From Sphingomonadales bacterium (lineage in GTDB: Bacteria; Pseudomonadota; Alphaproteobacteria; Sphingomonadales; Sphingomonadaceae), in contig JAGWVC010000018.1 in the NCBI GenBank assembly GCA_018971065.1, positions 1-45,510 of the forward strand: a DNA stretch of 45,510 bases, written 5' to 3'. The position numbers and the translations under genes are program-made. Shown here piece by piece: positions 5,550 through 40,268 of the stretch (positions are counted from its first letter, which is position 1; every line of letters starts with the position of its first letter). The notes below the pieces were generated by a model. It was not told where the DNA came from. It ran no database searches and was given only the letters and a program-made list of their open reading frames with translations.

Positions 5550-6350
5550 ATGTTCATGGACCGATCCACCCGCCCCCCCGATCTTCCCGCAACCGTGGCA
5601 GGTGCATGCCGCCTGCTTGGCTCGATCCACGATGTCGGCCCGCGCTTCGCCGAACAGACGGCGCGGCTGCACGACTTGCTCGCCCGGCAGCTGGGCGGCC
5701 CGCGCTTCGCCATGCTGGTGGTGCCCGATCACTGGGGCGAAGCGCCGCTGAGCGCCGCGCCCGCCTTCCGCCGGCAGTTGCGCGACTGGGCGGACAGCGG
5801 CATCGAGATGTTCGTCCACGGCTGGTTCCACCGCGACCATGCCCGGCACAGCGGCATGGCCCGGCTGCGCGCCAGCACGATGACGGCGAGCGAAGGCGAA
5901 TTCCTCGGGCTGGAACGGGCGGTGGCGGCGCAGCGCATGGCCGATGGCAAGGCGCTGGTCGAAGACATCATCGGCCGCCCGGCGACCGGCTTCATCGCCC
6001 CTGCCTGGCTCTACGGACCGGGCGCGCGCGAAGCGCTGGACGCCAGCGGCTTTGCCCTGGCCGAGGATCACATGCGGGTGTGGCAGCCGGGCACCGGCCG
6101 GATCGTGGCGCGCGGGCCGGTGATCACCTGGGCCAGCCGGAGCCGCCCGCGCCAGCTGAGTTCGCTCGCCGTCGCGGCGCTGGCCCGCCACGGCCTGCAC
6201 CGCCTGCGCACCGTGCGCATCGCCGTCCATCCCGGCGATACCACCGTGCCGGCGTTGATGGACAGTATCGAGCGCACTTTCGCAGCCTTCGCCGCGCGCC
6301 GGCCCGCCGGGCGCTATGCCGACCTGCTGGCAGATGGTGAGGTTGTTTGA
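5550..6350 (+). CDS. Polysaccharide deacetylase-like protein (DUF2334 type)
   Basis: This 266-residue protein belongs to the carbohydrate esterase 4/DUF2334 group of NodB-like deacetylases. Landmarks are SIHDVGPRF (H27-D28, the metal-binding start), VVPDHWG (about 57), the HGWFHRD motif with H90 and H94, FIAPAWL (arginine/proline motif region) and RIAVHPGDT near the end. It probably removes N-acetyl groups from a surface glycan or glycolipid sugar in the cytoplasm, since no signal peptide is present. An ATG at 5556 is an alternative start. It leads a glycan cluster with the membrane protein, DUF2141 protein and GT4 enzyme downstream, although a 225-bp gap with no recognised gene separates it from the next one. 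Confidence 0.78.
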   Translation: MFMDRSTRPPDLPATVAGACRLLGSIHDVGPRFAEQTARLHDLLARQLGGPRFAMLVVPDHWGEAPLSAAPAFRRQLRDWADSGIEMFVHGWFHRDHARHSGMARLRASTMTASEGEFLGLERAVAAQRMADGKALVEDIIGRPATGFIAPAWLYGPGAREALDASGFALAEDHMRVWQPGTGRIVARGPVITWASRSRPRQLSSLAVAALARHGLHRLRTVRIAVHPGDTTVPALMDSIERTFAAFAARRPAGRYADLLADGEVV

Positions 6351-6575
6351 GCCGCCTGATTACCTTCGTGACGTTCGCCATTGCACATGGCGCGGTGATG
6401 ACTAGTAAGCGCAGCGACGAGCCGACCGGACGCAAGAACACTGCGACCACTGCGCTTCAAGAGTCCGAAACGCGATGATCTATTCAGCTTTCCTACATGC
6501 GGAATTTGCTTTGGCTGCGGATTGTGGACGTTTGCGGCGTCTGAGCAGCGTAAACAACGGCAAGGACGTTCCTGC

Positions 6576-7508
6576 ATGTATCTCCAGAGCACGGCACCCG
6601 GGGGGGCGGCGCGCGGTTTGCCGTTGAACCTGCCCCAGAGCGGCGATCGCAACTATTCGCGGTTGGCCGGCTGGGCGAGCGGACTGGTCTCGCTCGCGCT
6701 GCTGGTCATGGTCGCCTATCGCCTGCGCGAAACACCGCTGGGGCTGGTGCGCGAGATGATCCCGGCCTCGGGACAGTTCTGGGTGGTCTTCGCCGCCTAT
6801 TACCTGGCCGGGCCGCTCAGCGAATGGGTGATCTACCGCCGCTTGTGGGGCCTGCCGTTCTCGGGAATGGCGGCGCTGATGCGCAAGATGGTCAGCAACG
6901 AGCTGCTGCTGGGCTATCTGGGCGAAGTCCAGTTCTACGCCTGGGCGCGCAGCCGGCTGCAGCTGGCGAACACGCCCTTCGGCGCGATCAAGGACGTGGC
7001 GGTGCTTTCGGCGCTGACCGGCAACTTCGCCACGCTGGGCATGCTGGCACTGGCCTGGCCGCTGGTCGCCTCGGGTGCGATCGGGGTGGAAGGCCGCACC
7101 GCGTTCATCTCGCTGGGCGTGGTACTGGTTTCGTCGCTGGCGATCCTGTTGCTGCGGCGCAAGCTGTTCTCGCTGCCGCGCGCCGATCTGCTGTTCATCA
7201 CCGGCGTGCACTTCCTGCGCATCCTGGCGGTGGTGGCGCTGGCGGCGCTGATGTGGCACACGATCCTGCCGCTGGTCTCGCTGGGGCTGTGGTTCGTGCT
7301 GGCGACGCTGCGGATGCTGGTTTCACGCCTGCCGTTGCTGCCGAACAAGGACGTGGTCTTTGCCGGCCTCGCCGTGTTCCTGATGGGCAGCGAGGTTCAG
7401 GTGGCCGGGCTGATGGCGATGATGGCGGCGATCCTGCTGGTGGTCCATATCGCCGTGGGCACTGCCTTTGCGGCCGGGGAACTGGCCAGTTCGTGGAGGA
7501 GCAAGTGA
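6576..7508 (+). CDS. Multipass membrane protein, flippase-like topology
   Basis: I do not recognise a named family with certainty. The 310-residue product has about eight hydrophobic segments: near residues 30-48, 65-85, 110-130, 150-175, 180-195, 205-230, 235-255 and 265-300. Spacing and the short conserved-looking loops (GPLSEWVIYRRLWGLP, VSNELLLGYLGEVQFYAWAR) recall the UPF0104/MprF flippase fold, but that is only a resemblance. The ATG at 6576 is favoured over an upstream in-frame start at 6522 because AAGGA sits nine bases before it. The stop overlaps the next gene's GTG (GTGA, 7505-7508), so it is coupled to the DUF2141 gene and probably serves the same glycan pathway. Confidence 0.7.
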   Translation: MYLQSTAPGGAARGLPLNLPQSGDRNYSRLAGWASGLVSLALLVMVAYRLRETPLGLVREMIPASGQFWVVFAAYYLAGPLSEWVIYRRLWGLPFSGMAALMRKMVSNELLLGYLGEVQFYAWARSRLQLANTPFGAIKDVAVLSALTGNFATLGMLALAWPLVASGAIGVEGRTAFISLGVVLVSSLAILLLRRKLFSLPRADLLFITGVHFLRILAVVALAALMWHTILPLVSLGLWFVLATLRMLVSRLPLLPNKDVVFAGLAVFLMGSEVQVAGLMAMMAAILLVVHIAVGTAFAAGELASSWRSK

Positions 7509-8029
7509 AGTCAATCCTGTTGTTGGGCGCTGTTCCGCTGCTGGTGGCAGCGGCGGTTCCGTCCTCCCCCGATCTCGGCAAGGCGGAAGGCCGCTGCCGT
7601 CCGGGCGAACCGGGACCGGCCTTCCTGGTGACGGTGGCCGGCCTGAAGGACCGTCAGGGTGAGCTCAAGCTGGAAGTCTATCCGTCGAACGACACCGATT
7701 TCCTGCAGGATGACAATATCCTGATCAACGCCGGCAAGACTTTCCGCCGGGTCGAGCAGCCGTTCCCCGCTTCGGGTCCGGTGGAGCTGTGCATCCGCGT
7801 GCCCGGGCCGGGGGCCTATTCGCTCTCGCTGCTGCATGATCGCGACCGCAACCGGCGCTTCGGCTGGACGGTGGACGGGATCGGCTTTTCCGCCAACCCG
7901 CACCTCGGCTGGTCCAAGCCGAAGGCCAGCGCCACGCGCGCGATGGCCGGGGCGGGGATAACGCGGATCACCGTGGTGATGAACTACCGCAATGGCCTGG
8001 GAGTCGCGCCGCTGGCCCGGTCACGGTGA
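7505..8029 (+). CDS. DUF2141 secreted protein
   Basis: This 174-residue exported protein has a signal peptide of about 18-20 residues (LLLGAVPLLVAAAVPSS) and a DUF2141 beta-sandwich-like domain. Typical features are LTVTVAGL-like strands (here FLVTVAGLKDRQGELKLEVYP), then VELCIRVPGPGAYSLSLLHD, and the D-R-N-R-R-FGWTVDGIGFSANP motif with an Asp/Asn-rich loop reminiscent of calcium-binding turns. The function of DUF2141 is not established. The start is GTG at 7505 with GGAGGAG just upstream, overlapping the previous stop. The next gene starts four bases after its stop. Confidence 0.78.
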   Translation: MKSILLLGAVPLLVAAAVPSSPDLGKAEGRCRPGEPGPAFLVTVAGLKDRQGELKLEVYPSNDTDFLQDDNILINAGKTFRRVEQPFPASGPVELCIRVPGPGAYSLSLLHDRDRNRRFGWTVDGIGFSANPHLGWSKPKASATRAMAGAGITRITVVMNYRNGLGVAPLARSR

Positions 8030-27704: not shown

Positions 27705-27780
27705 TGATTGACGCCGCGCGGTCCACGATATAGCCATATTGCGAACGACTATTCACAATGTCGAACCAGGAGAGAGTGCC

Positions 27781-29241
27781 TTGCAGCATACGGGCTATAT
27801 CGGCGGGCAGTTTGTCGCTGGCGAAGGCGCGCGGTTCCGGGTGGAGAATCCGTCCGACGAAAGCACCGTCGCCGAAATCGCCGGGCAGAGCGAGGCGCAG
27901 GTTGCCGCCGCGCTTGCCGCCGCCCGGGGTTCGTTCGATGCCGGTGTCTGGAGCGGTATCGGCAATGCCCGGCGAGCCGACGCGATGCGCCGTTTCGCTG
28001 CCGCCATGGACAAGCGGGCCGATGCCTTGCGTGAACTGGCGCTGCGGGAGGCTGGCTGCCCGATTGGCTCTTCGGTGATGAACGCGCAGGTCACCGCGCC
28101 GCTGCGCATGACGCACGAAGCCATCGACTATTTCCTGTCGCTGCCCGAGATCGAGGAAAACCCGCTGCCGCTGCACGAGCGGGTGAACGCCATGGGCATG
28201 ACCGTGCAAAGCCTGAAACGCTGGACGCCGCTGGGGGTGGTCTCGGCGATTTCGGCCTACAACGTGCCGTTCTACACCGCGATGTGGAAGGTGGTGCCGG
28301 CGCTGCTCGCGGGCAATTCGGTGGTGCTGCGGCCCAACCCGCTGACCCCGCTGTCTGCCATGATCTTTGCCGAGGCGGCAGACGAAGCCGGCCTGCCGCC
28401 CGGGGTGATGAACGTGGTGATCGAGCAAGGGCTGGAAGGCGCGCGGCTGATGACCACCGACGATGTGGTGGACATGGTCAGCTTTACCGGATCCTGCACC
28501 GTCGGGGCGCTGGTGGCGCAGCAGGCGGCGGCCACGCTCAAGCGGGTGGTGCTGGAACTGGGCGGCAAATCGGCGCAGATCTTCCTGCCCGACGCGGTGG
28601 ACAAGGCCCCGTTGCAGGCGATGGTCATCGCCGTGGCGCACGCCGGGCAGGGCTGCGCGCTCGGCACCCGGATCTTCGTGCCCGAGGACGCCAAGGCACA
28701 GGTGCTGGACAAGGCCGCCGCGCTGATGGCGAAGATCAAGGTCGGCCCCGCCAGCGACCCCGCCACCCAGACCGGCCCGGTGATCAGCGCCGCCCAGCGC
28801 GCCCGCTGCGAGCATTTCGTCGCCGAAGCGGTGAAGCACGGCGGCCGGGTGGTCTGCGGCGGCAAGCGGCCCGAGGGGCTGGACAAGGGCTATTACTTCG
28901 AGCCGACCCTGCTCGACCTGCCGGACAATGCCAACCCGGCGGCGCAGGAGGAAATCTTCGGCCCCGTTGCGGCGGTGATCGGCTACCGCGATCTCGACCA
29001 TGCGGTGGAGATGGCCAACGATTCGCGCTTCGGCCTGTCGGGCTATGTCCACGGCGCAGACAAGGCGGCGGCGCTGCAGGTGGCACTGCGTATCCGCAGC
29101 GGCACGGTCAACGTCAACGGCGCGCTGATGAGCACCTATGCCTCGATGGGCGGTATCCGCATGAGCGGCATGGGGCGCGAGCGCGGACTGGAAGGGTTCC
29201 GCGCGTTCCAGCAGCTGTCGATGCTCAACATCGGGGCGTGA
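27781..29241 (+). CDS. NAD(P)-dependent aldehyde dehydrogenase
   Basis: This 486-residue aldehyde dehydrogenase has unknown substrate. Visible motifs are SAYNVPFYTAMWKVVPAL (cofactor pocket), SFTGSCTVGALVAQQ, the general base in LELGGKSAQI and the catalytic cysteine in HAGQGCALGTR. Near the C-terminus are EEIFGPVAAVIGY and SMGGIRMSGMGRERGLEGF. The start is taken as TTG at 27781 because CAGGAGAGAG lies seven bases upstream and homologues begin near this point; ATG 27739 would add 14 residues with a poor ribosome site. A role in catabolism of an aromatic or terpenoid aldehyde is plausible from the neighbouring DUF2889 and molybdoenzyme genes, but it is inference. Confidence 0.88.
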   Translation: MQHTGYIGGQFVAGEGARFRVENPSDESTVAEIAGQSEAQVAAALAAARGSFDAGVWSGIGNARRADAMRRFAAAMDKRADALRELALREAGCPIGSSVMNAQVTAPLRMTHEAIDYFLSLPEIEENPLPLHERVNAMGMTVQSLKRWTPLGVVSAISAYNVPFYTAMWKVVPALLAGNSVVLRPNPLTPLSAMIFAEAADEAGLPPGVMNVVIEQGLEGARLMTTDDVVDMVSFTGSCTVGALVAQQAAATLKRVVLELGGKSAQIFLPDAVDKAPLQAMVIAVAHAGQGCALGTRIFVPEDAKAQVLDKAAALMAKIKVGPASDPATQTGPVISAAQRARCEHFVAEAVKHGGRVVCGGKRPEGLDKGYYFEPTLLDLPDNANPAAQEEIFGPVAAVIGYRDLDHAVEMANDSRFGLSGYVHGADKAAALQVALRIRSGTVNVNGALMSTYASMGGIRMSGMGRERGLEGFRAFQQLSMLNIGA

Positions 29242-29259: not shown

Positions 29260-29369
29260 TCGTCATCCCCGCGCAGGCGGGGATCCATCTCCGGCCTTCG
29301 CCCAATCTCGCTACGTCAAGGCAATCGGCAAGCCTGGGAGATGGATTCCCGCCTGCGCGGGAATGACGA
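29260..29369. repeat. Inverted repeat pair of the TCGTCATCCCCGCGCAGGCG family
   Basis: The arms 29260-29292 and 29337-29369 are 33 bp each and differ at only two or three positions. Each arm is itself a hairpin (CCCCGCGCAGGCGGGG or CCCGCCTGCGCGGG). This is a very common dispersed intergenic repeat in proteobacteria. It gives rise to spurious MDSRLRGNDE peptides when read as protein. Confidence 0.88.
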
Positions 29370-29445
29370 AGTTAGGATGGTTGGTTCGGACCGGACCCGC
29401 CCATATCGCACCGACGTTCGCCCCGCCCTTGGCAAGGTCGCGCGC

Positions 29446-30498
29446 ATGGTGTCCAATCGGGGTAAGAACGATTCCGGGAGACTTCCGATAACCACGACTT
29501 CCCCCAGTGCCCCGCGCCTCACCGCCAATCCCTCACCGGTCCGCCGGGCGGGCTCGGTGCGGCGCACTGCTTCGATCGACGTTGCCTGGCCTGACGGAGC
29601 CGAGGGTGACCGGCTGCTGCATGGCCGGGTGCGCGATATGCTGACCCCGGCAGAAGGCGAAGCGCGGGTGCTCGATCAGGCGACCATGGAAGTGGTGCTG
29701 CGGCCCGACAAGACCATCGCCGCCATCTCCGCCGTCCCCGCGCCCGCAAACCTGCACGATCTCGTCGGCCAGCGCGGCGGCAACCATTTGCGGCTGATGA
29801 TCCGCGATACCATGCCCGAGCTGATCGATACTGCCGCGCCGCTCTACCTCGTGCTGGACGACATCTCCGGGACGTCGCTGGTCTCGTCATGGGCCTGGGC
29901 GCAGTGGACGCCGGACTGGATGGCGCGGGTGCGCGAACTGATGCCGCCCGACCAGCTGGAAAAGATGACCAATGCCCGGCTCGGCGTCTGCTGGGGGCTG
30001 CAACCGGGCAACAGCGGCACGCAGCAGCTCGGCTCGGGCAGCCACACGGTGAACGCCGCCGACGCGGGCGAGCTGCGCAATCCCGAAGACCCGGACGGCT
30101 GGCACCTCTTTCCCGAGATCGCCGGGCCCAGCTTCCGCCGAGCCCGCCGGATCGACCTGTGGCGCGACGAAACGGCCGGGCTGATTCGCGTCGAAGCCTC
30201 GTTCCAGGACAGCGCGCCTGCGCCGGGCGGCAAGCGGGTGGCGATCCACGAATATGTCCTGCGGCTCGCCGCCGATGCGCAGACGCTGGCGATCCGTTCG
30301 ATCGAGCCCGAACCCCGCATCCTGCCGTTCCACGAATGCCCCGGCGCGGTGGCGAATGCCCAGCGCATGGTCGGGGTGCCGCTGCCCGCCATCCGCGACG
30401 CGGTGCTCGACCAGCTGCGCGGCCCGGCGGGCTGCACCCACCTCAACGACGCCATGCGCGCGCTGGCGGATGTGCCCAGGCTGCTGGAACGGTTGTAG
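29446..30498 (+). CDS. DUF2889 protein
   Basis: This product of about 350 residues contains a DUF2889 domain, with matching blocks DRLLHGRVRDMLTP, VLRPDKTIAAISAVP, FHECPGAVANAQRMVGVPL and a C-terminal CTHLNDAMRALADVP. The conserved histidines and cysteines in FHECPGA and GCTHLND look like a metal site. DUF2889 genes often occur in sterol, terpenoid and aromatic degradation clusters, but no activity is established. The start is uncertain: ATG 29446 is used, and the first roughly 35 residues look unstructured. The frame is open further upstream only through the dispersed repeat, which is not coding. Confidence 0.75.
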   Translation: MVSNRGKNDSGRLPITTTSPSAPRLTANPSPVRRAGSVRRTASIDVAWPDGAEGDRLLHGRVRDMLTPAEGEARVLDQATMEVVLRPDKTIAAISAVPAPANLHDLVGQRGGNHLRLMIRDTMPELIDTAAPLYLVLDDISGTSLVSSWAWAQWTPDWMARVRELMPPDQLEKMTNARLGVCWGLQPGNSGTQQLGSGSHTVNAADAGELRNPEDPDGWHLFPEIAGPSFRRARRIDLWRDETAGLIRVEASFQDSAPAPGGKRVAIHEYVLRLAADAQTLAIRSIEPEPRILPFHECPGAVANAQRMVGVPLPAIRDAVLDQLRGPAGCTHLNDAMRALADVPRLLERL

Positions 30499-30517
30499 GT
30501 TTGCGCTCTTCCCTTGC

Positions 30518-30610
30518 AAGGAGAGGTGCCTGACAGGAGCGGAAGGGCACACCCCGTTCCGGATAGCACGACACCCCTCCGTCATCGCTTCGCGATGCCA
30601 CCTCCCCTTC
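30518..30610. repeat. Small interspersed repeat with CATCGC-TTC-GCGATG hairpin
   Basis: The ends AAGGAGAGGTG.C and G.CACCTCCCCTT are imperfect inverted copies about 90 bp apart. Inside lies a perfect hairpin at 30583-30597 flanked by CCCCTCCGT and CCACCTCCCC. Elements of this look recur in sphingomonad intergenic regions. It sits between the DUF2889 gene and the polyamine-linked operon. Confidence 0.6.
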
Positions 30611-30712
30611 CAGCGGAGGAGCTTTGCTACAGGGCGGAGCTATGGCATTCCTTGCAAACGCCCCCCACCACGTAAACCGCGAAACAATCCGACGAACGCC
30701 GTCCGGTTTTAC

Positions 30713-30740
30713 TTGCACCGCGCCCGCGAGTTCCTAGAAT
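30713..30740 (+). promoter_or_regulatory. Candidate promoter of the SPFH/polyamine operon
   Basis: TTGCAC (30713-30718) and TAGAAT (30735-30740) are spaced by 16 bp. Transcription would start near 30747, giving a leader of about 20 bases that includes GGAGG before the ATG at 30767. It is one of the better sigma-70-like matches in this GC-rich window. Confidence 0.5.
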
Positions 30741-30766
30741 CGCGCGCATCCCGATGGAGGACACCC

Positions 30767-31771
30767 ATGTTCGATTTTCTCAGGAAGCAGTTCGTCGATG
30801 TTATCGACTGGCTTGAACAGCCCGGCGATCTTGCCTGGCGCGTGCCGTTCGAGGACCGCGAGATCCAGAACGGCGCGCAGTTGACGGTGCGTGAGGGGCA
30901 AGTTGCGGCCTTCCTCAACGAAGGCAAGCTGGCCGACGTGTTCGGCCCGGGGCTGCACACGCTCGATACCGCCAACCTGCCAATCCTGACCAGCCTGATG
31001 AACTGGGACAAGGCGTTCAAGTCTCCGTTCAAGTCCGACGTGGTGTTCTTCTCGCTGAAAGAGCAGCCGGGGCTGAAATGGGGCACGCCCCAGCCGGTGA
31101 CGGTGCGCGACGCCGATCTCGGCGCGGTGCGGCTGCGCGCCTTCGGTTCCTATTCGTTCAAGATCGACAATCTGGAGGCATTCTCCACCCGGTTGCTGGG
31201 CACCATGGGCGAGCTGACCGCACCGGCGCTGGAGCCGCAGCTGCGTTCGGCCATCGTCACCTCGATGGCCACCGCGCTGGGATCGAGCGGGGTTCCCTTC
31301 CTCGATCTCGCCGCCAACCAGCAGAAGATGTCGGACCAGATCAAGGCAGAGGTCGACAAGGCCTTTGCCGAATGGGGCCTGAAATGCCTGACCTTCTTCG
31401 TCGAATCGGTCTCGCTGCCTGAAGAGGTCCAGGCCTATCTCGACAAGGGCAGCTCGGTGCGCGCGGTGGGCAATCTCGATGCCTTCACCAAGTTCCAGGC
31501 GGCTGACGCGCTGGGCAAGGCGGCGGAGAACCCGGGCGGCATGGGCGCGATCGGCGCGCAGCTCGCCGCCGGGGCCTCGCTCGGCGGGGTCTTCGCGCAG
31601 GGGCTGGGCGGCGGCTCGCCAGCAAGCGCGTCTGCTGCCGCGCCAGTCGCTGCGGCGGAGGAAGACCCCTTTGCGCTGATCGAAAAGCTGCACAAGCTGG
31701 TCACCATCGGGGCGCTCAGCCAGGAAGAATTTGACGTGAAGAAGGCGGAACTGCTCGCGCGGGTCAAGTAA
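30767..31771 (+). CDS. SPFH-domain protein with C-terminal SHOCT
   Basis: This 334-residue membrane-scaffold protein resembles B. subtilis YdjI and the so-called virion core proteins. The SPFH/band-7 region (about 30-240) includes VREGQVAAFLNEGKLADVFGPG, VRLRAFGSYSFKIDN and AEWGLKCLTFFVESVSLPEEV. A Gly/Ala-rich linker (about 265-300) precedes a SHOCT domain (EEDPFALIEKLHKLVTIGAL...EFDVKKAELLARV), a short oligomerisation motif. There is no membrane span, so it probably binds the inner face of the membrane as a ring or patch. ATG 30767 follows GGAGG by seven bases. It leads an operon with DUF4178, DUF350 and polyamine genes. Confidence 0.88.
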   Translation: MFDFLRKQFVDVIDWLEQPGDLAWRVPFEDREIQNGAQLTVREGQVAAFLNEGKLADVFGPGLHTLDTANLPILTSLMNWDKAFKSPFKSDVVFFSLKEQPGLKWGTPQPVTVRDADLGAVRLRAFGSYSFKIDNLEAFSTRLLGTMGELTAPALEPQLRSAIVTSMATALGSSGVPFLDLAANQQKMSDQIKAEVDKAFAEWGLKCLTFFVESVSLPEEVQAYLDKGSSVRAVGNLDAFTKFQAADALGKAAENPGGMGAIGAQLAAGASLGGVFAQGLGGGSPASASAAAPVAAAEEDPFALIEKLHKLVTIGALSQEEFDVKKAELLARVK

Positions 31772-31793
31772 CCGCGCCGGTTTGAAGGGGGAC

Positions 31794-32465
31794 ATGGTGG
31801 CCGAACTTGCCTGCCCGTCGTGCGGTGCACCGGTGCCGCTGCGTTCGGCGGCGATGCCCTATGCGGTCTGCTCCTATTGCCAGACGGTGATCGTCCGGCA
31901 GGACGATGGCCTGCGCGACATCGGCAAGTCTGCCGTGCTCCCCTTCGACGTCTCGCCGATCCAGCTCGGCACCACCGGCAATGCAGACGGCCAGCCGTTC
32001 GAAGTGGTTGGCCGGGTGCGCTGGGGCTGGAGCGACGGTTCGTGGAACGAATGGCTGCTGGCGCTGCGCGACGGTTCCTACCGCTGGCTGGGCGAGGCGA
32101 TGGGCCAGTTCCAGCTGCTGCGCGAAGACGAGTCGGTCTATGCCGACCCGCTGCTCAAGGCGTTCGACAGCGGCCAGCCGATCATGCTGGGCGAGACCCT
32201 GAGGGCCGGTGGCACCACCTTCGCCGCAGCTGACATCAAGCAGGCGAAATGCCTGGGCGGCGAGGGTGACCTGCCATTCCCCACCCCGGCGGGAATGGAA
32301 ATGGCCAGCGTCGACTTCCGCAGCGAGAGCGGCGAATCGCTGAGCGTCCAGCGCGATCCGCAGGGGATGAGCGCCTATCTGGGCCGCTATGTCAGCCTTG
32401 AAGACCTCACCGCGCGCAACCTGCGCGTGATCGATGGCTGGACCGTGCCGGAGACGCTGCGATGA
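31794..32465 (+). CDS. Zinc-ribbon DUF4178 protein
   Basis: This 223-residue protein begins with a zinc ribbon (CPSCGAPVPL...VCSYCQTV) followed by a DUF4178 domain (about 60-130) with FEVVGRVRWGWSDGSWNEWLLAL and YRWLGEAMGQFQLL. The function of DUF4178 is unknown, but the family is repeatedly linked to SPFH/YdjI and DUF350 genes. The start could be ATG 31794 or GTG 31797; the GGGGG ribosome site is better spaced for the latter. The stop overlaps the next gene (ATGA). It probably interacts with the SPFH protein at the membrane. Confidence 0.83.
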   Translation: MVAELACPSCGAPVPLRSAAMPYAVCSYCQTVIVRQDDGLRDIGKSAVLPFDVSPIQLGTTGNADGQPFEVVGRVRWGWSDGSWNEWLLALRDGSYRWLGEAMGQFQLLREDESVYADPLLKAFDSGQPIMLGETLRAGGTTFAAADIKQAKCLGGEGDLPFPTPAGMEMASVDFRSESGESLSVQRDPQGMSAYLGRYVSLEDLTARNLRVIDGWTVPETLR

Positions 32466-33886
32466 CCCCGGCACCCTCGGCCCGGCAGGTGCAGTGCCCG
32501 TCTTGCGGCGGCACCATCGCGATCAAGGCGGCGGGCTATTCGGTCTCGGTCGCCTGCCAGTATTGCGGTTCGCTGCTCGACGTCGCCAATCCCGACGTCA
32601 AGCTGATCGAGGAATACCATCAGGCCGCCGCCGACCTCGAGCTGCCGCTGAGCGCGCGCGGCACGCTGGACGGCGTGGTCTGGGAAGTGATCGGCGCGCT
32701 GGCACGCTCGGATGACGAGACCAGCTGGAGCGAATTCCTGCTGTTCAACCCCTATGCCGGCTACCGCTGGCTGGTCCACGCCGAAGACCGCTGGACCTTC
32801 GGCACGATGCTGACCGACCTGCCCGGCAATGCCTTCGGCGATGCGGTGACCTGGCGCGGCCAGCGCTATACGGCGGAATACGATCCGGCGGACACCCGCA
32901 CCGATCGGGTGGTTGGCGAATTCTACTGGCGGGTGCGCGCGGGTGACACGGTGGAGGCAACCACCTTTGCCGGTTACGGCGGCATCCTCTCGCTGGAAAT
33001 ATCGGGTGACGAAACCAACTGGACCCAGCTCACCCCGCTGGCGCGCGGCGCGGTCGAGGCGGCGTTCGGGGCTGGCGGGCAGGCCGCCTCGCCGGGTGGC
33101 TTCGGGCGCAAGGGACTGGTCGGCGGCGCGGCGGCGGCAGCCGGCGCGGGCGCGACCATGGCGGCAGCCACCGCGCCGCGAGAAGCTCCGGCATGGCTGG
33201 CGGACAAGGGCGATGCCGGGCCGAAGAACCCGCTGCGCGATGCCTGGCACATGTTCCTTGTCGGGCTGGGCACGCTGATCGCCTGCATCGTCATCATGGC
33301 CATGTTCGGCGCGACCAGCGGTTCCGCCGCGATTCAGGTCAGCGTTACCCCCGAGGCGGCGGAACAGACCTTCACCGTCGGCACGGTGACCATCACCCGG
33401 CCCTATCAGGCGGTGAGCGTCACCGCGCAGGCGACCGGCGACAACTTCGTCAACAAATGGGTCGATCTCGACTACAGCCTGGTGGATCGCAAGACGCAGA
33501 AGGCGATCAACGCCTATGGCCTGGTCGAATACTACCGGGGCCGCGATTCGGACGGGGACTGGACCGAGGGCAGCCGCAGCACCACCACCAAGTTTGCCGG
33601 GGTGCCGGCGGGCACCTATGACCTGATGGTGGACGTGGCGGCGCACAACTGGAACGGCGGCACGTCCAGCTACGGCTCGGGCAGCACCGGCAGCGCCTGG
33701 GGCAGCGCCTGGGGCAGCGACGCGGTGCCGGTGACCATCACCCTGGCGCGCGGCGGCTTCTTCCTGTCGAACCTGATGCTCTGGCTGCTGTTGCTGCTGG
33801 TGCCGCCGGGCTTCATGATCTGGCGCGCGGTGAAGCGGGCGCAAGGGGGCTCTGGCGGCTATGACTTTGACGACGATGATGATTGA
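32462..33886 (+). CDS. Membrane-anchored zinc-ribbon DUF4178 protein
   Basis: This 474-residue protein has an N-terminal zinc ribbon (CPSCGGTIAI...CQYCGSLL) and a DUF4178 domain (about 68-190). A linker leads to one membrane segment (about 262-283), an external beta-rich domain (about 285-435) with Gly/Ser-rich GSGSTGSAWGSAWGSD, a second membrane segment (about 438-458) and an acidic end, DFDDDDD. The DUF4178 part is thus cytosolic, and a domain of about 150 residues faces the periplasm. It is a paralogue of the preceding gene plus a membrane module. It overlaps the upstream stop by four bases. Confidence 0.85.
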   Translation: MTPAPSARQVQCPSCGGTIAIKAAGYSVSVACQYCGSLLDVANPDVKLIEEYHQAAADLELPLSARGTLDGVVWEVIGALARSDDETSWSEFLLFNPYAGYRWLVHAEDRWTFGTMLTDLPGNAFGDAVTWRGQRYTAEYDPADTRTDRVVGEFYWRVRAGDTVEATTFAGYGGILSLEISGDETNWTQLTPLARGAVEAAFGAGGQAASPGGFGRKGLVGGAAAAAGAGATMAAATAPREAPAWLADKGDAGPKNPLRDAWHMFLVGLGTLIACIVIMAMFGATSGSAAIQVSVTPEAAEQTFTVGTVTITRPYQAVSVTAQATGDNFVNKWVDLDYSLVDRKTQKAINAYGLVEYYRGRDSDGDWTEGSRSTTTKFAGVPAGTYDLMVDVAAHNWNGGTSSYGSGSTGSAWGSAWGSDAVPVTITLARGGFFLSNLMLWLLLLLVPPGFMIWRAVKRAQGGSGGYDFDDDDD

Positions 33887-33910
33887 TCGCAACCAGCGGA
33901 GGCCCGGGCG

Positions 33911-34054
33911 ATGAGCACGCGCGTATTCCTGTTCGGCGCCTGGTGCCTGGTCATCCTGCTGGGCGACATCGTCAGTTCATATTATGCCTGGGCGCTGTTT
34001 TCAGACGGTGAGAAACCCTCGCATTCCAGTTTCTACGGCCCTACCCACAAATAG
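33911..34054 (+). CDS. 47-residue single-span membrane protein
   Basis: This small gene lies between the second DUF4178 gene and the DUF350 gene. The product is STRVFLFGAWCLVILLGDI followed by VSSYYAWALFSDGEKP and a short polar tail. One membrane helix spans about residues 5-30. GGAGG lies eight bases before ATG. The clean operon spacing (24 bp after the upstream gene, 22 bp before the next) and GC-rich third codon positions support it as real. No family is recognised; it could be a small subunit of the membrane complex. Confidence 0.75.
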   Translation: MSTRVFLFGAWCLVILLGDIVSSYYAWALFSDGEKPSHSSFYGPTHK

Positions 34055-34076
34055 CTCCAACCGGAGGAACTCCGCC

Positions 34077-34286
34077 ATGCTGTCGCCCACCATCATCCTT
34101 GCCACCCTGCTCTACACCGGGCTGGGCATCGTCCTGTTCGTGCTGAGCTTCGTGCTGGTCGACAAGCTGACCCCGGGCGAGATGTGGAAGGAAATCATCG
34201 AGAAGCAGAACATTGCCCTGGCCGTGCTGGCCGGTGCGGTCGCCGTGGGGCTCTCGAACATCATCGCCGCCGCCATTCATGGATGA
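34077..34286 (+). CDS. DUF350 membrane protein
   Basis: This 69-residue inner-membrane protein has two hydrophobic helices (about 5-28 and 46-66) joined by a charged loop (DKLTPGEMWKEIIEKQN), the hallmark of a half-length DUF350 unit. E. coli YjfL carries related DUF350 units next to a PspA-family protein and a glutathionylspermidine-synthase-like enzyme. GGAGG precedes ATG 34077. The last eight bases overlap the next gene, the spermidine-synthase-like enzyme, which points to coupled production and probably physical partnership. Confidence 0.87.
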   Translation: MLSPTIILATLLYTGLGIVLFVLSFVLVDKLTPGEMWKEIIEKQNIALAVLAGAVAVGLSNIIAAAIHG

Positions 34287-35838
34287 CGTCCCCGCGGGGG
34301 ACGAGGGCGGCGAAGGTGGCGCGCGGCAGGTTGGTACCCGGTCGCTCGCGGCGATCCTGCTGCTGTCGGTCTTCGTCGTCGCCACCTGCGGGCTGATCTA
34401 CGAGCTGCTCGCCGGGACGCTGGCGAGCTACCTGCTCGGCGACAGCGTCACCCAGTTCTCCACCGTCATCGGCACCTACCTGTTCGCCATGGGCATGGGC
34501 TCCTGGCTGTCGCGCTATGTCCGCAGCAACGAGCTGGCGGTGTTCGTGCGGGTGGAAGTGCTGATCGCGCTGCTGGGCGGCTGGTCGGCGGCGGCGCTTT
34601 TCGTGCTGTTCCCGCTGGTCAATGATTTCCGCTTCGCGCTCTACGGGCTGGTGCTGGCGATCGGCGTGCTGGTGGGGCTGGAAATTCCGCTGCTGATCCG
34701 CATCCTGCGCCACCGCTTCGCCTTCCGCGAACTGGTGTCCAACGTGCTGACCTATGATTACGTCGGCGCGCTGATTGCCAGCCTGGCCTTTCCGCTGGTG
34801 CTGGTGCCACGGCTGGGCATGATCCGCACCGGCTTCGCCTTCGGTCTCGCCAATGTCGGCGTCGCGCTGGCACTGCTGTTCGTGCTGCGTGCGCATCGGC
34901 GGATGAAGGCGGAGCTGTTTGCCGCGCTGGTGGTCACCGCCTCGCTGCTGGTCGGTTTCATCGTTTCCGAGCGGCTGCAGCGCTGGTCCGAGGTCGCCTT
35001 CTATGCCGAGCCGGTGATCTATGCCCGCTCCACGCCCTATCAGCGCATCGTCATCACTCGCCGGGGGCCGGACCTGCGGCTCTACCTGAACGGCAATCTG
35101 CAATTCTCCTCGAACGACGAATACCGCTATCACGAGGCACTGGTCTGGCCGGTGCTGGGGCGGGTGGCGAAGCCGGCGCAGGTGCTGATCCTGGGCGGCG
35201 GTGACGGCCTGGCCGCGCGCGAGGTGCTGCGCGATCCGCGCGTCAATCACGTGACACTGGTCGATCTCGATCCCGAGATGACCCGGCTGTTCCGCGCGAC
35301 GTCGCAGCTGCGCGCGCTCAACCGGGGTTCGCTGCTTTCGCCGCGCCTGACGGTGATCAATGCCGACGCCTTCCGCTGGGTGCGCGCGGCGCGCGGGACC
35401 TATGACGCGGTGCTGGTGGACTTTCCCGATCCCACCGAATTCTCGCTCGGCAAGCTGTACACCGAGAGTTTCTATCACGAAGTCGCCCGGCTGCTCGCGC
35501 CCGAAGGGGTGATGACGGTGCAGAGCACCTCGCCGCTGGTCGCGCCGCGTTCCTACTGGACCGTGGCCTCGACGCTGGAAGCCGCCGGGCTTTCGGCGCG
35601 CGGCTATCACGCCTATGTGCCCAGCTTCGGCGAATGGGGCTTTACCCTGGCCGGCCATCGCCCGCCCGGCGATGCGGTGGCGCTCCCCGCCGGTCTGCGC
35701 TTCCTCACCCCCGCCACCGAACGCGCGATGTTCGATTTCCCGCCCGACATGGCCCGCCGGCCTACTCCGGTGAACCGGCTCGACAATCAGGCGCTGGTCC
35801 GTTCCTTCACCGAGGAATGGGGCAAGTATGATGGGTAG
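34279..35838 (+). CDS. speE: Membrane-anchored polyamine aminopropyltransferase
   Basis: This 519-residue spermidine-synthase-family enzyme transfers an aminopropyl group from decarboxylated S-adenosylmethionine to a polyamine. Residues about 20-235 contain seven or so membrane helices not found in soluble SpeE; the C-terminal catalytic domain (about 250-510) has LILGGGDGLAAREVLRDP (nucleotide loop), LVDLDPEMTRL and DAVLVDFPDPTEFSLGKLYT with the catalytic aspartate. Such long, membrane-fused forms form a distinct group. The start is ATG 34279, inside the DUF350 gene. SpeD, which makes its substrate, is two genes downstream. The acceptor (putrescine or another amine, possibly membrane-bound) is not known. 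Confidence 0.88.
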   Translation: MDDVPAGDEGGEGGARQVGTRSLAAILLLSVFVVATCGLIYELLAGTLASYLLGDSVTQFSTVIGTYLFAMGMGSWLSRYVRSNELAVFVRVEVLIALLGGWSAAALFVLFPLVNDFRFALYGLVLAIGVLVGLEIPLLIRILRHRFAFRELVSNVLTYDYVGALIASLAFPLVLVPRLGMIRTGFAFGLANVGVALALLFVLRAHRRMKAELFAALVVTASLLVGFIVSERLQRWSEVAFYAEPVIYARSTPYQRIVITRRGPDLRLYLNGNLQFSSNDEYRYHEALVWPVLGRVAKPAQVLILGGGDGLAAREVLRDPRVNHVTLVDLDPEMTRLFRATSQLRALNRGSLLSPRLTVINADAFRWVRAARGTYDAVLVDFPDPTEFSLGKLYTESFYHEVARLLAPEGVMTVQSTSPLVAPRSYWTVASTLEAAGLSARGYHAYVPSFGEWGFTLAGHRPPGDAVALPAGLRFLTPATERAMFDFPPDMARRPTPVNRLDNQALVRSFTEEWGKYDG

Positions 35839-35909
35839 CGAGCCCCGTCCCGCTCGGCACGAACGGGTGCCGGGATATTCCGGGCAGCGTCCGGATTGCA
35901 GCCTCCGCC

Positions 35910-37526
35910 ATGCCCGCTGATCTCACCCGGCGCGGCGCACTGGCCATCGGCGTCGGGGCGGCGGCAGCGGCTGGGCTGCCGGGCTGCGCGGCACGATCAC
36001 TGCCAGGCACGCTGGCCGGCGCGGATTTCACGCGCGGGCACCGGCTGCGCAACATGACCTTTCCGCCAGTGACCGGCCCGGTCGAGGACGTGGGGCTGGT
36101 GATCGCCGGGGGCGGGGTGGCCGGGCTGGCCACGGGCTGGCGGCTGGCCGAGGCGGGCTTCAGCGATTTCCGCCTGCTCGAGCTGGAAGACAGCACCGGC
36201 GGCAATGCCCGCTTTGGCCGCAACGCCATCTCCGCTTATCCGCTGGGCGCGCATTACCTGCCGGTGCCCAACCGCGAGGCCGGGGCGCTGCGGCGGATGC
36301 TGGCGCAATTCGGCATGATCGTCGGCGAAGGCGTGGGCGGCGCGCCGGTTTATGATCCCTACCAGCTCTGCGCCGATCTGGAGGAGCGCCTGTTCTGGCG
36401 CGGCCAGTGGCAGGAGGGGCTCTATCCGGTGGCCGGGCTGACCGCGAAGGACAAGGCCGACCGCGATGCCTTCTCCGCCGCCATGACCCGCTTTTCCGCC
36501 GCCATGGGGCGTGATGGCAAGCCAGCCTTCGCCCTGCCGATGGCCTATTCCTCTGCCGACCCGGCGTTCACCGCGCTGGACGCGATCAGCTTCACCGCCT
36601 GGCTGGACAGCCAGCACCTGTCCTCGCCAGTGCTGCGCGCCTACCTGCGCTATTGCATGCGCGACGATTACGGCACCGAGCCGCAACACGTCTCCGCCTG
36701 GGCCGGCATCCACTACTTCGCCGCCCGGCGCGGCTGGGCGGCGAACGGGGACGGTGACCGCGAGCTGACCTGGCCCGAGGGCAATGGCCGGCTGGTGACG
36801 CTGATGGCGCAGCGCATCGCGCCGCATGTCACCCCAGCGCGCACCGTGTTCCGCGTGGCGCGTGACGGCGATCACGTGCTGGTCGACAGTTATGACATGG
36901 CCGCCAACCGCTCCACCCGCCTGCGTGCCCGCGCGGCGGTGCTGGCCATGCCGCATTTCGTCGCCGCGCGGGTGGCGCCCGAACTCGGCACCACCACCGG
37001 CTTCAGCTATGCGCCGTGGGTGGTCGCCAATGTCAGCGTTTCGCGCCGCCCAAGCGGGCGCGGTGTGCAACTGGCCTGGGACAACGTCTCCACGGCCACC
37101 GACTCGCTCGGCTATGTCGTCGCCACCCACCAGACCAGCGGCGCGGGCGACGGGCCGAGCGTACTGACCTGGTACATGCCGCTGAGCAACATGGAACCGG
37201 CGCAGGCGCGCAAGGCGATGCTCACCCGGCCGCTGGGCGAATGGCAGCGGATCGTTGCGGATGACCTGATCGCGATGAACCCGGAGCTGGAAGGCACAAT
37301 CGAGCGGATCGACCTGTGGCGCTGGGGCCATGCGATGATCCGGCCCACCCCCGGCTACATCACCGGCACCCCGCGCCGCGCCGCGCTGGCCGTGCCGCCG
37401 CCGCTGTTCCTCGCCCATTCCGATCTTTCCGGCCTGTCGCTGTTCGAAGAAGCGCACTATCGCGGCGTTCTTGCCGCCGAGGGCGCATTGCGCCATCTCG
37501 GCAAGGCATTCGAAAGCTACCTGTGA
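35910..37526 (+). CDS. Tat-exported FAD-dependent amine-oxidase-like lipoprotein
   Basis: This 538-residue flavoprotein has a Rossmann FAD motif (VIAGGGVAGLATGWRLAEAG, about 63-83) and the amine-oxidase-like motif TGGNARFGRNAISAYPLGAHYLP. The N-terminus has a twin-arginine signal (TRRGALAIGVGAAAAAG) and a lipobox LPGC with Cys26, so it is probably folded with FAD, exported by Tat and lipid-anchored in the periplasm. Near the C-terminus, LFLAHSDLSGLSLFEEAHYRG is typical of monoamine-oxidase-like folds. Its place between speE and speD suggests a polyamine or polyamine-conjugate substrate. SpeD begins on its last base. Confidence 0.83.
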   Translation: MPADLTRRGALAIGVGAAAAAGLPGCAARSLPGTLAGADFTRGHRLRNMTFPPVTGPVEDVGLVIAGGGVAGLATGWRLAEAGFSDFRLLELEDSTGGNARFGRNAISAYPLGAHYLPVPNREAGALRRMLAQFGMIVGEGVGGAPVYDPYQLCADLEERLFWRGQWQEGLYPVAGLTAKDKADRDAFSAAMTRFSAAMGRDGKPAFALPMAYSSADPAFTALDAISFTAWLDSQHLSSPVLRAYLRYCMRDDYGTEPQHVSAWAGIHYFAARRGWAANGDGDRELTWPEGNGRLVTLMAQRIAPHVTPARTVFRVARDGDHVLVDSYDMAANRSTRLRARAAVLAMPHFVAARVAPELGTTTGFSYAPWVVANVSVSRRPSGRGVQLAWDNVSTATDSLGYVVATHQTSGAGDGPSVLTWYMPLSNMEPAQARKAMLTRPLGEWQRIVADDLIAMNPELEGTIERIDLWRWGHAMIRPTPGYITGTPRRAALAVPPPLFLAHSDLSGLSLFEEAHYRGVLAAEGALRHLGKAFESYL

Positions 37527-37882
37527 TGACCGTCCACCCGCCGACCAACAGCCTGCACCTGATCGCCGACATCGAGGGCGCGCAGGGGCTTGGCGACCTG
37601 CCGCTGATCGAGGCCGTGCTGCGCGAGGCGGCAGCTGCGGCGCGGGTGATGCTGATCGACATCAGGCTGCACCACTTTGGCGAGGGCCACGGAGTGACCG
37701 GGGTGGCGCTGCTCGCCGAATCGCACATTTCGATCCACACCTGGCCCGAAGCCGCCCTTGCGGCGGTGGACATCTTCACCTGTGGCCCCCGCTCCGACCC
37801 GCACGCCGCTCTGGCGCTGATCGAGCAACGCCTGGGCGGCCACACCGTGCTGCACGAGGAAATCCGCCGCGCGCAGGGATGA
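37526..37882 (+). CDS. speD: S-adenosylmethionine decarboxylase proenzyme
   Basis: This 118-residue class 1B AdoMet decarboxylase makes the aminopropyl donor for polyamine synthesis. It self-cleaves between E65 and S66 in LLAESHISIHTWPE to form the pyruvoyl cofactor; H71 and C86 match the catalytic His and Cys of the Thermotoga enzyme. Length is typical of this short bacterial form. The ATG overlaps the previous stop by one base (TGATG). It is the last gene of the operon, followed by a strong palindrome. Confidence 0.95.
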   Translation: MTVHPPTNSLHLIADIEGAQGLGDLPLIEAVLREAAAAARVMLIDIRLHHFGEGHGVTGVALLAESHISIHTWPEAALAAVDIFTCGPRSDPHAALALIEQRLGGHTVLHEEIRRAQG

Positions 37883-37902
37883 CGTGCGGCTGAGCCAACA
37901 AT

Positions 37903-37928
37903 GATCCTCCCCGCTTGCGGGGAGGATC
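37903..37928. terminator. Perfect palindrome, terminator or dispersed repeat
   Basis: GATCCTCCCCGC and GCGGGGAGGATC are perfect 12-bp arms around a TT centre, 20 bases after the speD stop. It may end the operon, although no T-run follows. The sequence also resembles the ATCCTCCCC...GGGGAGGAT dispersed palindromes frequent in sphingomonad genomes, so it may be both. Confidence 0.6.
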
Positions 37929-37975
37929 CATGCGGGCTGCTCCGCTCGCCGAAGGTTGGTAACACCCGGACCGGT

Positions 37976-40027
37976 TCAAGCCGGTGCGATCTCCACCGGC
38001 ACGGCGCTGTAGTGCGCCATGCCGCCGAGCGGGTCCATCGCGTGGGTTGAGGTCAGGAGATTGACATTGGCCTCGCCGTGGCCGTGCGGGATCGAGCAGA
38101 CCCCGCGCCGCGTGCCAGGATCGATCCGCGCGGTGACGGTGATTTCGCCCGATGCGTTCCACACCCGCACCGGCTGGCCATCCACCACGCCGTGCTGCGC
38201 CGCCGTTTCCGGGTGAATCAGGCAATCAGCAATCTCGCCGAGGAAATCGATCTGGCCATTGAACTTCCGCCGCTGCCGGCGCGATGTATAGACCAGCGGG
38301 CGCGGCTGGCCGAGCGCGGCTTCGTCTTCCGCGCGGAAGCTGTGCCACTGTGCCACCACCTCGGGCGGCATCAGTTCCCAGCCGCCGATCCGCGCGAAGA
38401 AGCGGTCAACCCACGGCGCGGGCAGTTCGCGCGGGAATTCGACAACCCGCTTTTCCTTGAGCTCCGCCCACGAACAGCGCGCATGGGCCAGCAGCAGCGA
38501 TTGCATGAGATCGTCGTTCGCGTCCGAATGCTCGGTCGGTACGTGGTCTGCGACCGGCAGGCCGGCGCGGCGCATGATTTCGGCGATGACCCACCAGGCG
38601 GAACGCCGTTCGCCCATCGGCTTCACCAGCGCCGGGGCATATTGCAGCGAAACCGACCAGTTCAGCGTGTCCCAGCGCGTAAATTCGGCCCGCTCCACCG
38701 TCGCCTTGGTCGGCAGGATGTGGGTACACAGCGGGCTGAGCTCGTTGTGGGTGATCTCGGTGCTGACCAGCAGGTCCAGCTTGGGCAAGGCGGCGCGCAA
38801 TGCGTTGGCGTCGGGGAAGGAGCGCAGCAGGTGGCCGCCGAAGTTGAACAGCGCGGCGATGTTGCCCGCCTCGATTTCCTGCGGCAGCACCGCGCAGGGC
38901 CAGTCACCGCAGATGCCCTTGACGTCGGGCCGCACGTTCGAGCTGGCGGTGAAGGGGCTATCGAGCAGCGGCAGGTGATCGGTGAACCGGTCAAAGGGAA
39001 ACAGCGCGCCGGGGTGCAGCCACACGCCGCCGGGCACGTTGATCGATCCGGTCAGCACCCCCAGCAGCCAGGCGAACCACACGGTCAGGTTGCCGCCGGG
39101 CGACATGCCGGAGCCGGTGCCGGTTTCCACCGCGACGATGCGATGCCGCCGGATCGCCGCGAGCAGGCCCTCCATCTGAGCTGCTTCCACCCCGGCAATC
39201 GCGGCAGCGCGGGGCAGGTCGTAACCGGCCAGCAGTGCGCGCAGGGCGTCCAGATTGCGCACCGGCTGGCGCGGGGCGAAGCTGCTGTCCGCCAGCACTT
39301 CGCGCACCAGCCAGGCGAGCACGGCATAGTCGCGCCCTGGCCAGGCGGCGATGTGGCCCGCGGCGAAGTCCGCCGTTTCGGTGCGCACCGGATCGATCAC
39401 CCAGATCTCTCCGCCGCGCTTCCGGATCGTCTTGAACCACATGCCCGGATTGAACATGCCGGTGTTGTGCGCGTGGCTGACCATCGGGTTGGTGCCGACA
39501 TAGAGCACCAGCTTGCAGGCATCGTAATCGGTCTTGGGATTGATCCCGTAGAATCGCGCCATCGCGCCCGAGATCATCGTCTTGGCGGTGGTGTCGTTGG
39601 TCAGCGGCGAGAACTTGGGCGGAGTGCCGAGCGCGTGGTAGAGCGCTTCCTCCATGGCATAGCCCGCCGAATCGAGCCCCAGCCCGCTGCCGAAATACAT
39701 TCCCACCGCATGCGGTCCATGGGCATCGATCGTGGCGCGCAGACGGGCGGCGACATCGTCCAGCGCCTCGTCCCACTCCACCTCCACCAGCGCGCCGTCC
39801 TTGCGCATCAGCGGCCGGGTGATCGCGCCGTCCAGGTGGTAGATCTGTCCGGTGGCGCGGCCCTTGGGGCAGGAATAGCCTTTGGTCACCGGATGATCGC
39901 GGTCCGCCTTGACCGACAGGATGCGGCAATCATCCTCCACTTCGGCAACGATGCCGCAATTGGTCATGCAGACCTTGCAGTAGCTGCGCTTGAATTCGAT
40001 TCGCGGCGCTTCGGCGCGATTCGCCAT
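37976..40027 (-). CDS. DMSO-reductase-family molybdopterin oxidoreductase
   Basis: This 683-residue catalytic subunit binds bis-MGD molybdenum. The N-terminus has a [4Fe-4S] site (YCKVCMTNCG...GYSCPKG: C17, C20, C24 and C53). The molybdopterin domains include WDEALDDVAARL, YVGTNPMVSHAHNTG and WVIDPVRTETA, with a C-terminal MGD-binding region (GQPVRVWNASGEITVTARI). There is no Tat signal, so it is cytoplasmic. No electron-transfer subunit gene is adjacent. ATG 40027 follows AGAGGA by eight bases; the open frame extends further upstream but without a ribosome site. The substrate is unknown; formate-dehydrogenase/nitrate-reductase-like relatives are diverse. Confidence 0.87.
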   Translation of the reverse strand: MANRAEAPRIEFKRSYCKVCMTNCGIVAEVEDDCRILSVKADRDHPVTKGYSCPKGRATGQIYHLDGAITRPLMRKDGALVEVEWDEALDDVAARLRATIDAHGPHAVGMYFGSGLGLDSAGYAMEEALYHALGTPPKFSPLTNDTTAKTMISGAMARFYGINPKTDYDACKLVLYVGTNPMVSHAHNTGMFNPGMWFKTIRKRGGEIWVIDPVRTETADFAAGHIAAWPGRDYAVLAWLVREVLADSSFAPRQPVRNLDALRALLAGYDLPRAAAIAGVEAAQMEGLLAAIRRHRIVAVETGTGSGMSPGGNLTVWFAWLLGVLTGSINVPGGVWLHPGALFPFDRFTDHLPLLDSPFTASSNVRPDVKGICGDWPCAVLPQEIEAGNIAALFNFGGHLLRSFPDANALRAALPKLDLLVSTEITHNELSPLCTHILPTKATVERAEFTRWDTLNWSVSLQYAPALVKPMGERRSAWWVIAEIMRRAGLPVADHVPTEHSDANDDLMQSLLLAHARCSWAELKEKRVVEFPRELPAPWVDRFFARIGGWELMPPEVVAQWHSFRAEDEAALGQPRPLVYTSRRQRRKFNGQIDFLGEIADCLIHPETAAQHGVVDGQPVRVWNASGEITVTARIDPGTRRGVCSIPHGHGEANVNLLTSTHAMDPLGGMAHYSAVPVEIAPA

Positions 40028-40268
40028 GCCATGTCCTCTCCCTTGCCGCCGGTGTCGCGTTGTCCGGTCTTGGGGTGGCGCGAAGTCTCTGCCATCGTCC
40101 CGCGCGGCGCAAGGCCGTTCAGCGCAAGGCGCCGTAACGGCAAGTCGACTGATCGCCGGCACGGTGCCCCGGCGGGGCGCGGCACCGTGTTTCCGGGCGT
40201 TTTCATTCGCGCGCAAACTGTTACCATGGCCCCGGGCGGCCCCCTTGCCACAGCGGGGCGGTGTCGCT

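Follow-up and report, generated by a model that had tools for sequence, protein, structure and literature searches.

A lysine-ended membrane tail as candidate substrate of a membrane-fused aminopropyltransferase in a DUF350/DUF4178 operon

Which molecule accepts the aminopropyl group handled by a membrane-fused, spermidine-synthase-like enzyme is the question raised by an eight-gene locus at positions 30767-37882 of a 45,510-nucleotide stretch of Sphingomonadales bacterium DNA (assembly GCA_018971065.1, contig JAGWVC010000018.1; the whole stretch is called the window below). The enzyme, SpeEf, is encoded together with an SPFH/band-7 protein, two DUF4178 proteins (a and b), a 47-residue membrane protein, a DUF350 protein, a flavin adenine dinucleotide (FAD) protein and the S-adenosylmethionine (AdoMet) decarboxylase SpeD. 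Enzymes of the SpeEf kind are common and are annotated as polyamine synthases, though spermidine and spermine are reportedly not products of such bacterial fusions. The association of these genes is already in print; what was not found in print is a rule, namely that SpeEf, where it sits with DUF350 or DUF4178, has a Lys-ended partner. Judging from sequence, we favour, with some confidence, the reading that the operon is a protein-tail modification system in which SpeEf would aminopropylate a C-terminal lysine instead of making free polyamines. A named candidate for the acceptor residue makes the question directly testable by mass spectrometry, and the reading, if true, would add a protein modification, correct a common annotation and account for the DUF350 and DUF4178 proteins that travel with polyamine genes.

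A lysine-ended protein beside SpeEf

The 47-residue protein was listed in the preliminary description of the locus, which gave it no role, and it has no match in Pfam. Its final Lys codon is AAA (34049-34051), followed by the stop codon TAG (34052-34054). From comparison with other loci it looks like a conserved, Lys-ended membrane tail that is the key part of the system and the best candidate substrate. The comparison covered 145 SpeEf loci, of which 87 were annotated with profiles (7 plasmid loci chosen from 13 tblastn matches and the best 80 loci of a profile scan of species genomes, the latter not being an even sample; many of the 87 end at contig edges) and 58 are larger stretches added later from evenly drawn genomes; L082 and L209 are one region counted as two loci. 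DUF350 or DUF4178 is present in 125 of the 145 loci, and all 125 encode a membrane-anchored protein that ends in Lys, 118 of these having been found by a mechanical filter and 7 read by eye (L031, L048, L052, L063, L068, L079, and L083). The partnership between tail and enzyme is well supported.

The tail is found as a stand-alone small protein, as a fusion to DUF4178 or on another protein. The interval between DUF4178b and DUF350 holds a small Lys-ended open reading frame (ORF) in nearly every locus that has space for it (including L002, L021, L028, L031, and L086). Loci of the Burkholderiales type are without the small ORF, and in 14 of 15 the DUF4178 protein itself ends in HK, at the close of a Gly/Ser tail that goes with a C-terminal transmembrane (TM) segment; in the fifteenth (L003) the DUF4178 protein ends in GGKS and a separate minus-strand ORF ends in SHK. 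Farther afield the Lys end is found on other proteins, whose length varies from ~60 to 580 residues; they have GK at the C-terminus, apart from two with VK and IK. The tail proteins are membrane-anchored or secreted, and the tail itself is flexible and mostly rich in Gly and Ser, with Lys as the last residue. When the last three residues are removed the proteins fall into 17 single-linkage clusters (phmmer, 1e-4), the number of truly separate families being smaller because phmmer under-links short proteins. Among 121 tail proteins the terminal Lys is encoded by AAA (87) or AAG (34), all the codons for His and for Gly occur at the position before it and each of the three stop codons is used, indicating that selection acts on the amino acid. 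A profile with Lys as its last column recovered Lys ends in all 120 of the best 120 of 477 matches, which is weak evidence because that selection favours Lys.

The first mechanical search found Lys-ended TM ORFs in 90 of 122 loci, over-extended starts having made true genes look like shadows, and Gly ends in 72, which are probably DUF350 itself (Gly-ended in 47 of 74). Since the filter was replaced after the data had been seen, a blind choice and a prospective test weigh more. When the most hydrophobic ORF of the interval was picked blind to its last residue, it ended in Lys in 76 of the 87 loci, among the 145, that have such an ORF (45 HK, 29 GK, 1 VK, and 1 IK), and the 11 loci with another pick (L011, L029, L035, L044, L049, L062, L171, L174, L175, L176, and L202) all hold a Lys-ended tail as well. 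A control filter, which picked polar-tailed TM ORFs in the 4.8 kb upstream of SpeEf in the 125 loci, gave Lys ends on the same strand in 114 loci (Arg 20, Glu 17, Ser 17); the reverse strand had Lys ends in 9 loci, and its commonest end was Arg, in 45. The SpeEf loci that have neither DUF350 nor DUF4178 show a Lys end in 2 of 20 (L193 and L215).

The prospective test concerned genomes in which SpeEf stands alone, the prediction set beforehand being that these should carry the tail elsewhere. DUF4178 and DUF350 were searched for in 11 genomes (G292 and G428, the other two of the 13 that gave such loci in the even samples, were left out). DUF350 was found in nine, and in one of these (G475) a Lys tail lies next to SpeEf itself; the search gave no DUF350 match in G268 and G006. 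In seven of the eight other genomes (G467, G487, G453, G481, G169, G057, and G062) a membrane protein ending in Lys is encoded at the unlinked DUF350 locus. The filter used on these orphan genomes was looser than the main one, and three further matches lie away from DUF350 (L269, L272, and L275).

The enzymes and a possible mechanism

SpeEf is unlike soluble SpeE in having an N-terminal helical membrane domain (residues 18-228), and a comparison with the PDB, which bears on the parts other than this domain, gave an aminopropyltransferase fold. It contains a GGGDG motif and an Asp pair, which we take to be donor-binding and catalytic, respectively; Gly-306, Gly-308, Asp-309, Gly-310, Asp-381, and Asp-384 are at least 97% identical in 125 relatives. 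SpeD carries the sequence ESHISIHTWPE, in agreement with ESH-S-IHTWPE, presumably the self-cleavage motif of the small proenzyme of prokaryotic class 1 AdoMet decarboxylases; it aligns to 2iii/1vr7 and matches NCBIfam SAM_DCase_Bsu with 106 bits against a cut-off of 75.65.

In the proposed mechanism SpeD would provide decarboxylated AdoMet, and SpeEf would move the aminopropyl group onto the epsilon-amine of the C-terminal Lys of the tail. The side chain of Lys, a four-carbon aminoalkyl group, resembles putrescine. The DUF350 and DUF4178 proteins, together with the SPFH protein where present, would assemble the complex at the membrane, and the exported flavoprotein, which belongs to only part of the systems, might then oxidise or reverse the modification. 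The outcome would be a membrane-tethered, polyamine-like tag acting on the envelope; a role in envelope stress is a guess that rests on analogy with PspA-linked relatives.

Alternatively, SpeD and SpeEf could produce a free polyamine at the membrane, either spermidine or a related one, as an envelope protectant linked to the scaffold. Both SpeD and the aminopropyltransferase domain look catalytically intact, and the standard annotation is in line with this, SpeEf scoring well above the cut-off of the NCBIfam equivalog PRK03612 (polyamine aminopropyltransferase), which is why automatic annotation calls it a polyamine synthase. However, a passage of a 2025 J Biol Chem paper (PMC12803844) states that bacterial homologues of a fungal fusion of membrane domain and aminopropyltransferase are experimentally uninvolved in spermidine/spermine synthesis, citing Li 2019, and we infer that these homologues are the SpeEf family. 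If so, the on-site production of spermidine put forward in the preliminary description is unlikely; free polyamine as the product also leaves the Lys-ended tail unexplained, and we consider it quite improbable.

The fold of the flavoprotein is of the monoamine/putrescine-oxidase type, as expected of an FAD amine oxidase, and a twin-arginine translocation (Tat)-like signal is present in 79 of the 92 relatives with a readable N-terminus. The periplasmic amine oxidase suggested earlier is therefore borne out as regards apparent export and type of fold, and its match to Pfam Amino_oxidase stays at 15.7 bits, below the cut-off of 19.8. These properties, together with the predicted extracytoplasmic position of the tails, would also suit a scheme in which the flavoprotein acts on the terminal Lys, oxidising it to an aldehyde that cross-links the envelope, and SpeEf does something else. 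In 28 of the 58 larger stretches the tail is present and the FAD gene absent from the stretch read, so that the tail does not depend on the FAD protein. Oxidation of the Lys as the primary event is, in our judgement, very improbable.

Known systems and the points against tail modification

Ravi et al. 2024 (PMC11237479) describe, in the passages concerned with these genes, operons in which a spermine/spermidine-synthase-like domain fused to seven TM helices is found with DUF350, DUF4178, a lipoprotein and a CesT/Tir-PspA dyad. They also describe a variant whose dyad has given way to a band-7/2TM/SHOCT protein, accompanied by an AdoMet decarboxylase and a polyamine oxidase, and they mention actinobacterial clusters with DUF4247. 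The operon type had thus been recorded before, and the suggestion that the window holds a third version of an idea seen in other bacteria does not stand. The window has the same gene set, differently mixed: Pfam, the only means by which CesT/Tir was looked for, gave no match to PspA in its eight proteins, and its SPFH protein shows a strong Band_7_1 match, a sub-threshold SHOCT match and no clear TM pair. The same authors suggest that such systems monitor polyamine levels or aminopropylate other substrates, and these passages of their paper contain no small Lys-ended protein and name no candidate acceptor. Searches of the open-access literature aimed at protein aminopropylation and at a Lys tail of this kind gave no report of either. 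The triamine/agmatine aminopropyltransferase of Thermus and the thermospermine synthase of Medicago act on free amines, and their chains are without a TM domain, unlike SpeEf. An AdoMet decarboxylase acting with a membrane-fused spermidine synthase was reportedly given a non-polyamine role by Li et al. (Biochem J, 2019). SpeD, the fused enzyme and the non-polyamine role are in common with the reading given here for the window; no acceptor is known to have been named for that system, whereas a specific acceptor residue is proposed here.

A related arrangement is found in E. coli K-12, where YgiC and YjfC are annotated as peptide-spermidine ligases and their neighbours end in Gly-Gly after a Gly/Ser-rich tail, YgiB in MGG (L223, 1745-3582) and YjfM in WGG (L224, 8388-10192). 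YgiB-YgiC and YjfIJKLMC share with the window a polar-tailed, membrane-associated protein beside a polyamine-attaching enzyme, and the yjf genes also include DUF350. In contrast, the E. coli systems combine an ATP-grasp amide ligase with a Gly-Gly tail and the window combines an aminopropyltransferase with a Lys tail, Pfam giving no ATP-grasp match in the operon. The Gly-Gly and Lys ends match the chemistry of the respective enzymes: an amide ligase requires a carboxylate to act on, an aminopropyltransferase an amine. DUF350 is present in 54 of 200 Pseudomonadota genomes, 33 of which are without SpeEf; in 20 DUF350 stretches from 19 of these 33 the filter for Lys tails gave a single match, an opposite-strand ORF in L314, and 7 of the 20 carry Gly-Gly tails, all 7 with a ligase. 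DUF1190 proteins surveyed in 22 of the same 200 genomes end in GG in 16 of 20 cases with a YgiC/YjfC-type ligase gene nearby (the others end in GS, GS, GS, and SS) and in 0 of 4 without one, three of these four being from one genome. The ligase-linked figure was 15 of 19 until L234 gained a ligase in the wider stretch L322, and L244, with no phmmer match to YgiB or YjfM, was left unscored. Whether there is widespread aminopropylation of a membrane-tethered C-terminal Lys, possibly at the outer face of the inner membrane, which together with the ligases would form a tail-polyamination family whose last residue (Lys or Gly) matches the chemistry, is in our view an evenly balanced question.

Features of both arrangements also occur together. 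In G268 a YgiC/YjfC-like protein is encoded (phmmer E ~1e-33) and a GG-ended membrane protein adjoins SpeEf. In L189, from the Bacteroidota sample (4193-7546, SpeEf on the + strand), SpeEf faces a YgiC/YjfC-like protein, SpeD and a membrane protein ending in SYGG are present, and searches of the genome for DUF350 and DUF4178 gave no match; the locus is possibly a hybrid of the tail-Lys and ligase systems.

Several observations weigh against modification of the tail by SpeEf. The loci are related by descent and hence are not independent trials. Eighteen of the 20 SpeEf loci without DUF350 or DUF4178 have no nearby tail (L007, L027, L054, L066, L069, L072, L077, L169, L180, L181, L186, L189, L194, L213, L214, L216, L217, and L219, several being cut by contig ends), and the unlinked DUF350 locus of G570, one of the eight orphan genomes, gave no Lys-ended tail. 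By profile annotation SpeD is present in only 62 of the 87 annotated loci (DUF4178b in 78, DUF350 in 77, FAD in 77, and SPFH in 42). The active-site motifs of orphan SpeEf proteins are the same as those of tail-linked ones, except in L186, so that sequence alone cannot separate tail-linked from other uses of the enzyme.

The membrane side of SpeEf is the weakest link of the mechanism. The small proteins have 189 basic residues before the TM segment and 82 after it (more before in 58 loci, more after in 6, and 12 ties), from which the Lys tail should face outward; the tails are thus predicted to lie in an extracytoplasmic position, where decarboxylated AdoMet is not expected. The charge distribution of SpeEf favours seven TM helices, an arrangement in which its basic loops fall inside and the catalytic domain would be outside; the AlphaFold2 model, which has one unbroken helix at 149-202, would also allow six crossings, placing this domain inside. 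An inner catalytic domain would call for modification before the tail is exported, an outer one for passage of the donor through the membrane.

A further point is that the terminal Lys, in place of being an acceptor, could serve as a signal for recognition or assembly. It might be recognised, for example, by the extracytoplasmic domain of DUF4178b, by DUF350 or by the SPFH scaffold, or act as a tethered pseudo-substrate of SpeEf, with SpeEf aminopropylating something else, such as a lipid or a soluble amine. Terminal signals can be conserved without modification, the tail is tied to DUF350/DUF4178 as well (only the two loci noted above have it near SpeEf without them), and in the orphan genomes it lies with DUF350 and not with SpeEf. 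However, DUF350 stretches without SpeEf lack the tail apart from the one opposite-strand match, and the seven that carry Gly-Gly all have a ligase, so that the last residue seems to track enzyme chemistry and not DUF350; the last residues are also shared between tail proteins left unlinked by phmmer. A docking or pseudo-substrate role is accordingly judged unlikely, and aminopropylation of the terminal Lys by SpeEf is the reading we retain.

Operon layout and distribution

The eight ORFs lie head to tail on one strand and belong to the families named in the preliminary description (Table 1). The overlaps of 1-8 bases reported there were confirmed at three junctions (DUF4178a/b, 4 bases; DUF350/SpeEf, 8 bases; FAD/SpeD, 1 base). 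A promoter candidate ahead of the operon was not recovered, a scan of 30400-38100 with a simple consensus giving no sigma-70-like site on the + strand and a single minus-strand site at chance level. The designation SPFH-SHOCT holds for its first part; the SHOCT match is 22.8 bits, below the Pfam cut-off of 27, and hydropathy shows no clear TM segment in the protein. DUF4178a has zinc-ribbon-like Cys-x-x-Cys pairs at its N-terminus and probably starts at the ATG at 31794, after GAAGGGGG, in preference to the alternative TTG at 31782. DUF4178b has two TM segments near residues 264-282 and 435-453, C-terminal to the DUF4178 domain (hydropathy), and the domain between them would sit across the membrane.

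Table 1. Genes of the operon in the window
Feature	Coordinates	Strand	Properties
SPFH/band-7 protein with C-terminal SHOCT-like segment	30767..31771	+	334 aa; Pfam Band_7_1 E 2.2e-69
DUF4178 protein a	31794..32465	+	Pfam DUF4178 E 1e-15; no TM (hydropathy)
DUF4178 protein b	32462..33886	+	Pfam DUF4178 E 1.1e-15; zinc-ribbon-like N-terminus
47-aa single-TM protein	33911..34054	+	TM 5-23 (hydropathy); C-terminus FYGPTHK
DUF350	34077..34286	+	69 aa; two TM segments (hydropathy); Pfam E 6.4e-14
SpeEf	34279..35838	+	6-7 TM domain (~18-230) fused to aminopropyltransferase domain (~236-515); Pfam Spermine_synth
FAD protein	35910..37526	+	Tat-like signal, lipobox-like LPGC, amine-oxidase-type fold; Pfam NAD_binding_8
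SpeD, prokaryotic AdoMet decarboxylase	37526..37882	+	Pfam AdoMet_dc E 5.6e-31

The neighbourhood survey showed that the SPFH/DUF4178/DUF350 half is linked to the SpeD/SpeE half far beyond the genome of the window. The preliminary description had held that a linkage confined to this genome would speak against the operon being one system, and the linkage recurs widely across loci. Novosphingobium sp. ES2-1 has the identical eight genes in identical order, and Novosphingobium fused enzymes are 77-84% identical to the SpeEf of the window (among the best 120 of 7,998 matches). The recurring core order is DUF4178, small gene, DUF350, SpeEf, FAD, the position of SpeD being variable. The titles of the best 80 loci include members of the Pseudomonadota, Bacteroidota, Acidobacteriota, Gemmatimonadota, Verrucomicrobiota, and others, and SPFH is found in 0 of the 21 loci whose titles name Bacteroidota. 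SpeEf matches at E 1e-60 or better were found in 22 of 200 Pseudomonadota, 8 of 148 Bacteroidota, 16 of 99 Acidobacteriota, and 15 of 146 Cyanobacteriota genomes, each count including the centre genome, which was chosen for having the gene; the phylum names of these samples are from record titles and recall. The Pseudomonadota genome G006, in which the match is in two pieces (1.1e-43 and 3.2e-31), is outside the count of 22.

Directly upstream of the operon the window encodes a DUF2889 protein (29341-30498, +), which is probably outside the system because it has no relative among the 87 annotated loci. The region is flanked by an aldehyde dehydrogenase (27739-29241, +) and a molybdopterin oxidoreductase (37976-40216, -), assigned by Pfam, neither of which was seen within the conserved block. 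In Solitalea agri (L025, 5443-8913) DUF4178b, the Lys-ended small protein and DUF350 are tandemly duplicated, and both small proteins have the C-terminus SYYHK. On a plasmid of Alteromonas mediterranea (L006, 9013-15671) SpeEf, SpeD, a TelA-family protein, DUF4178, a 510-aa Lys-ended protein and DUF350 form one cluster, which links the system to TelA (toxic anion resistance).

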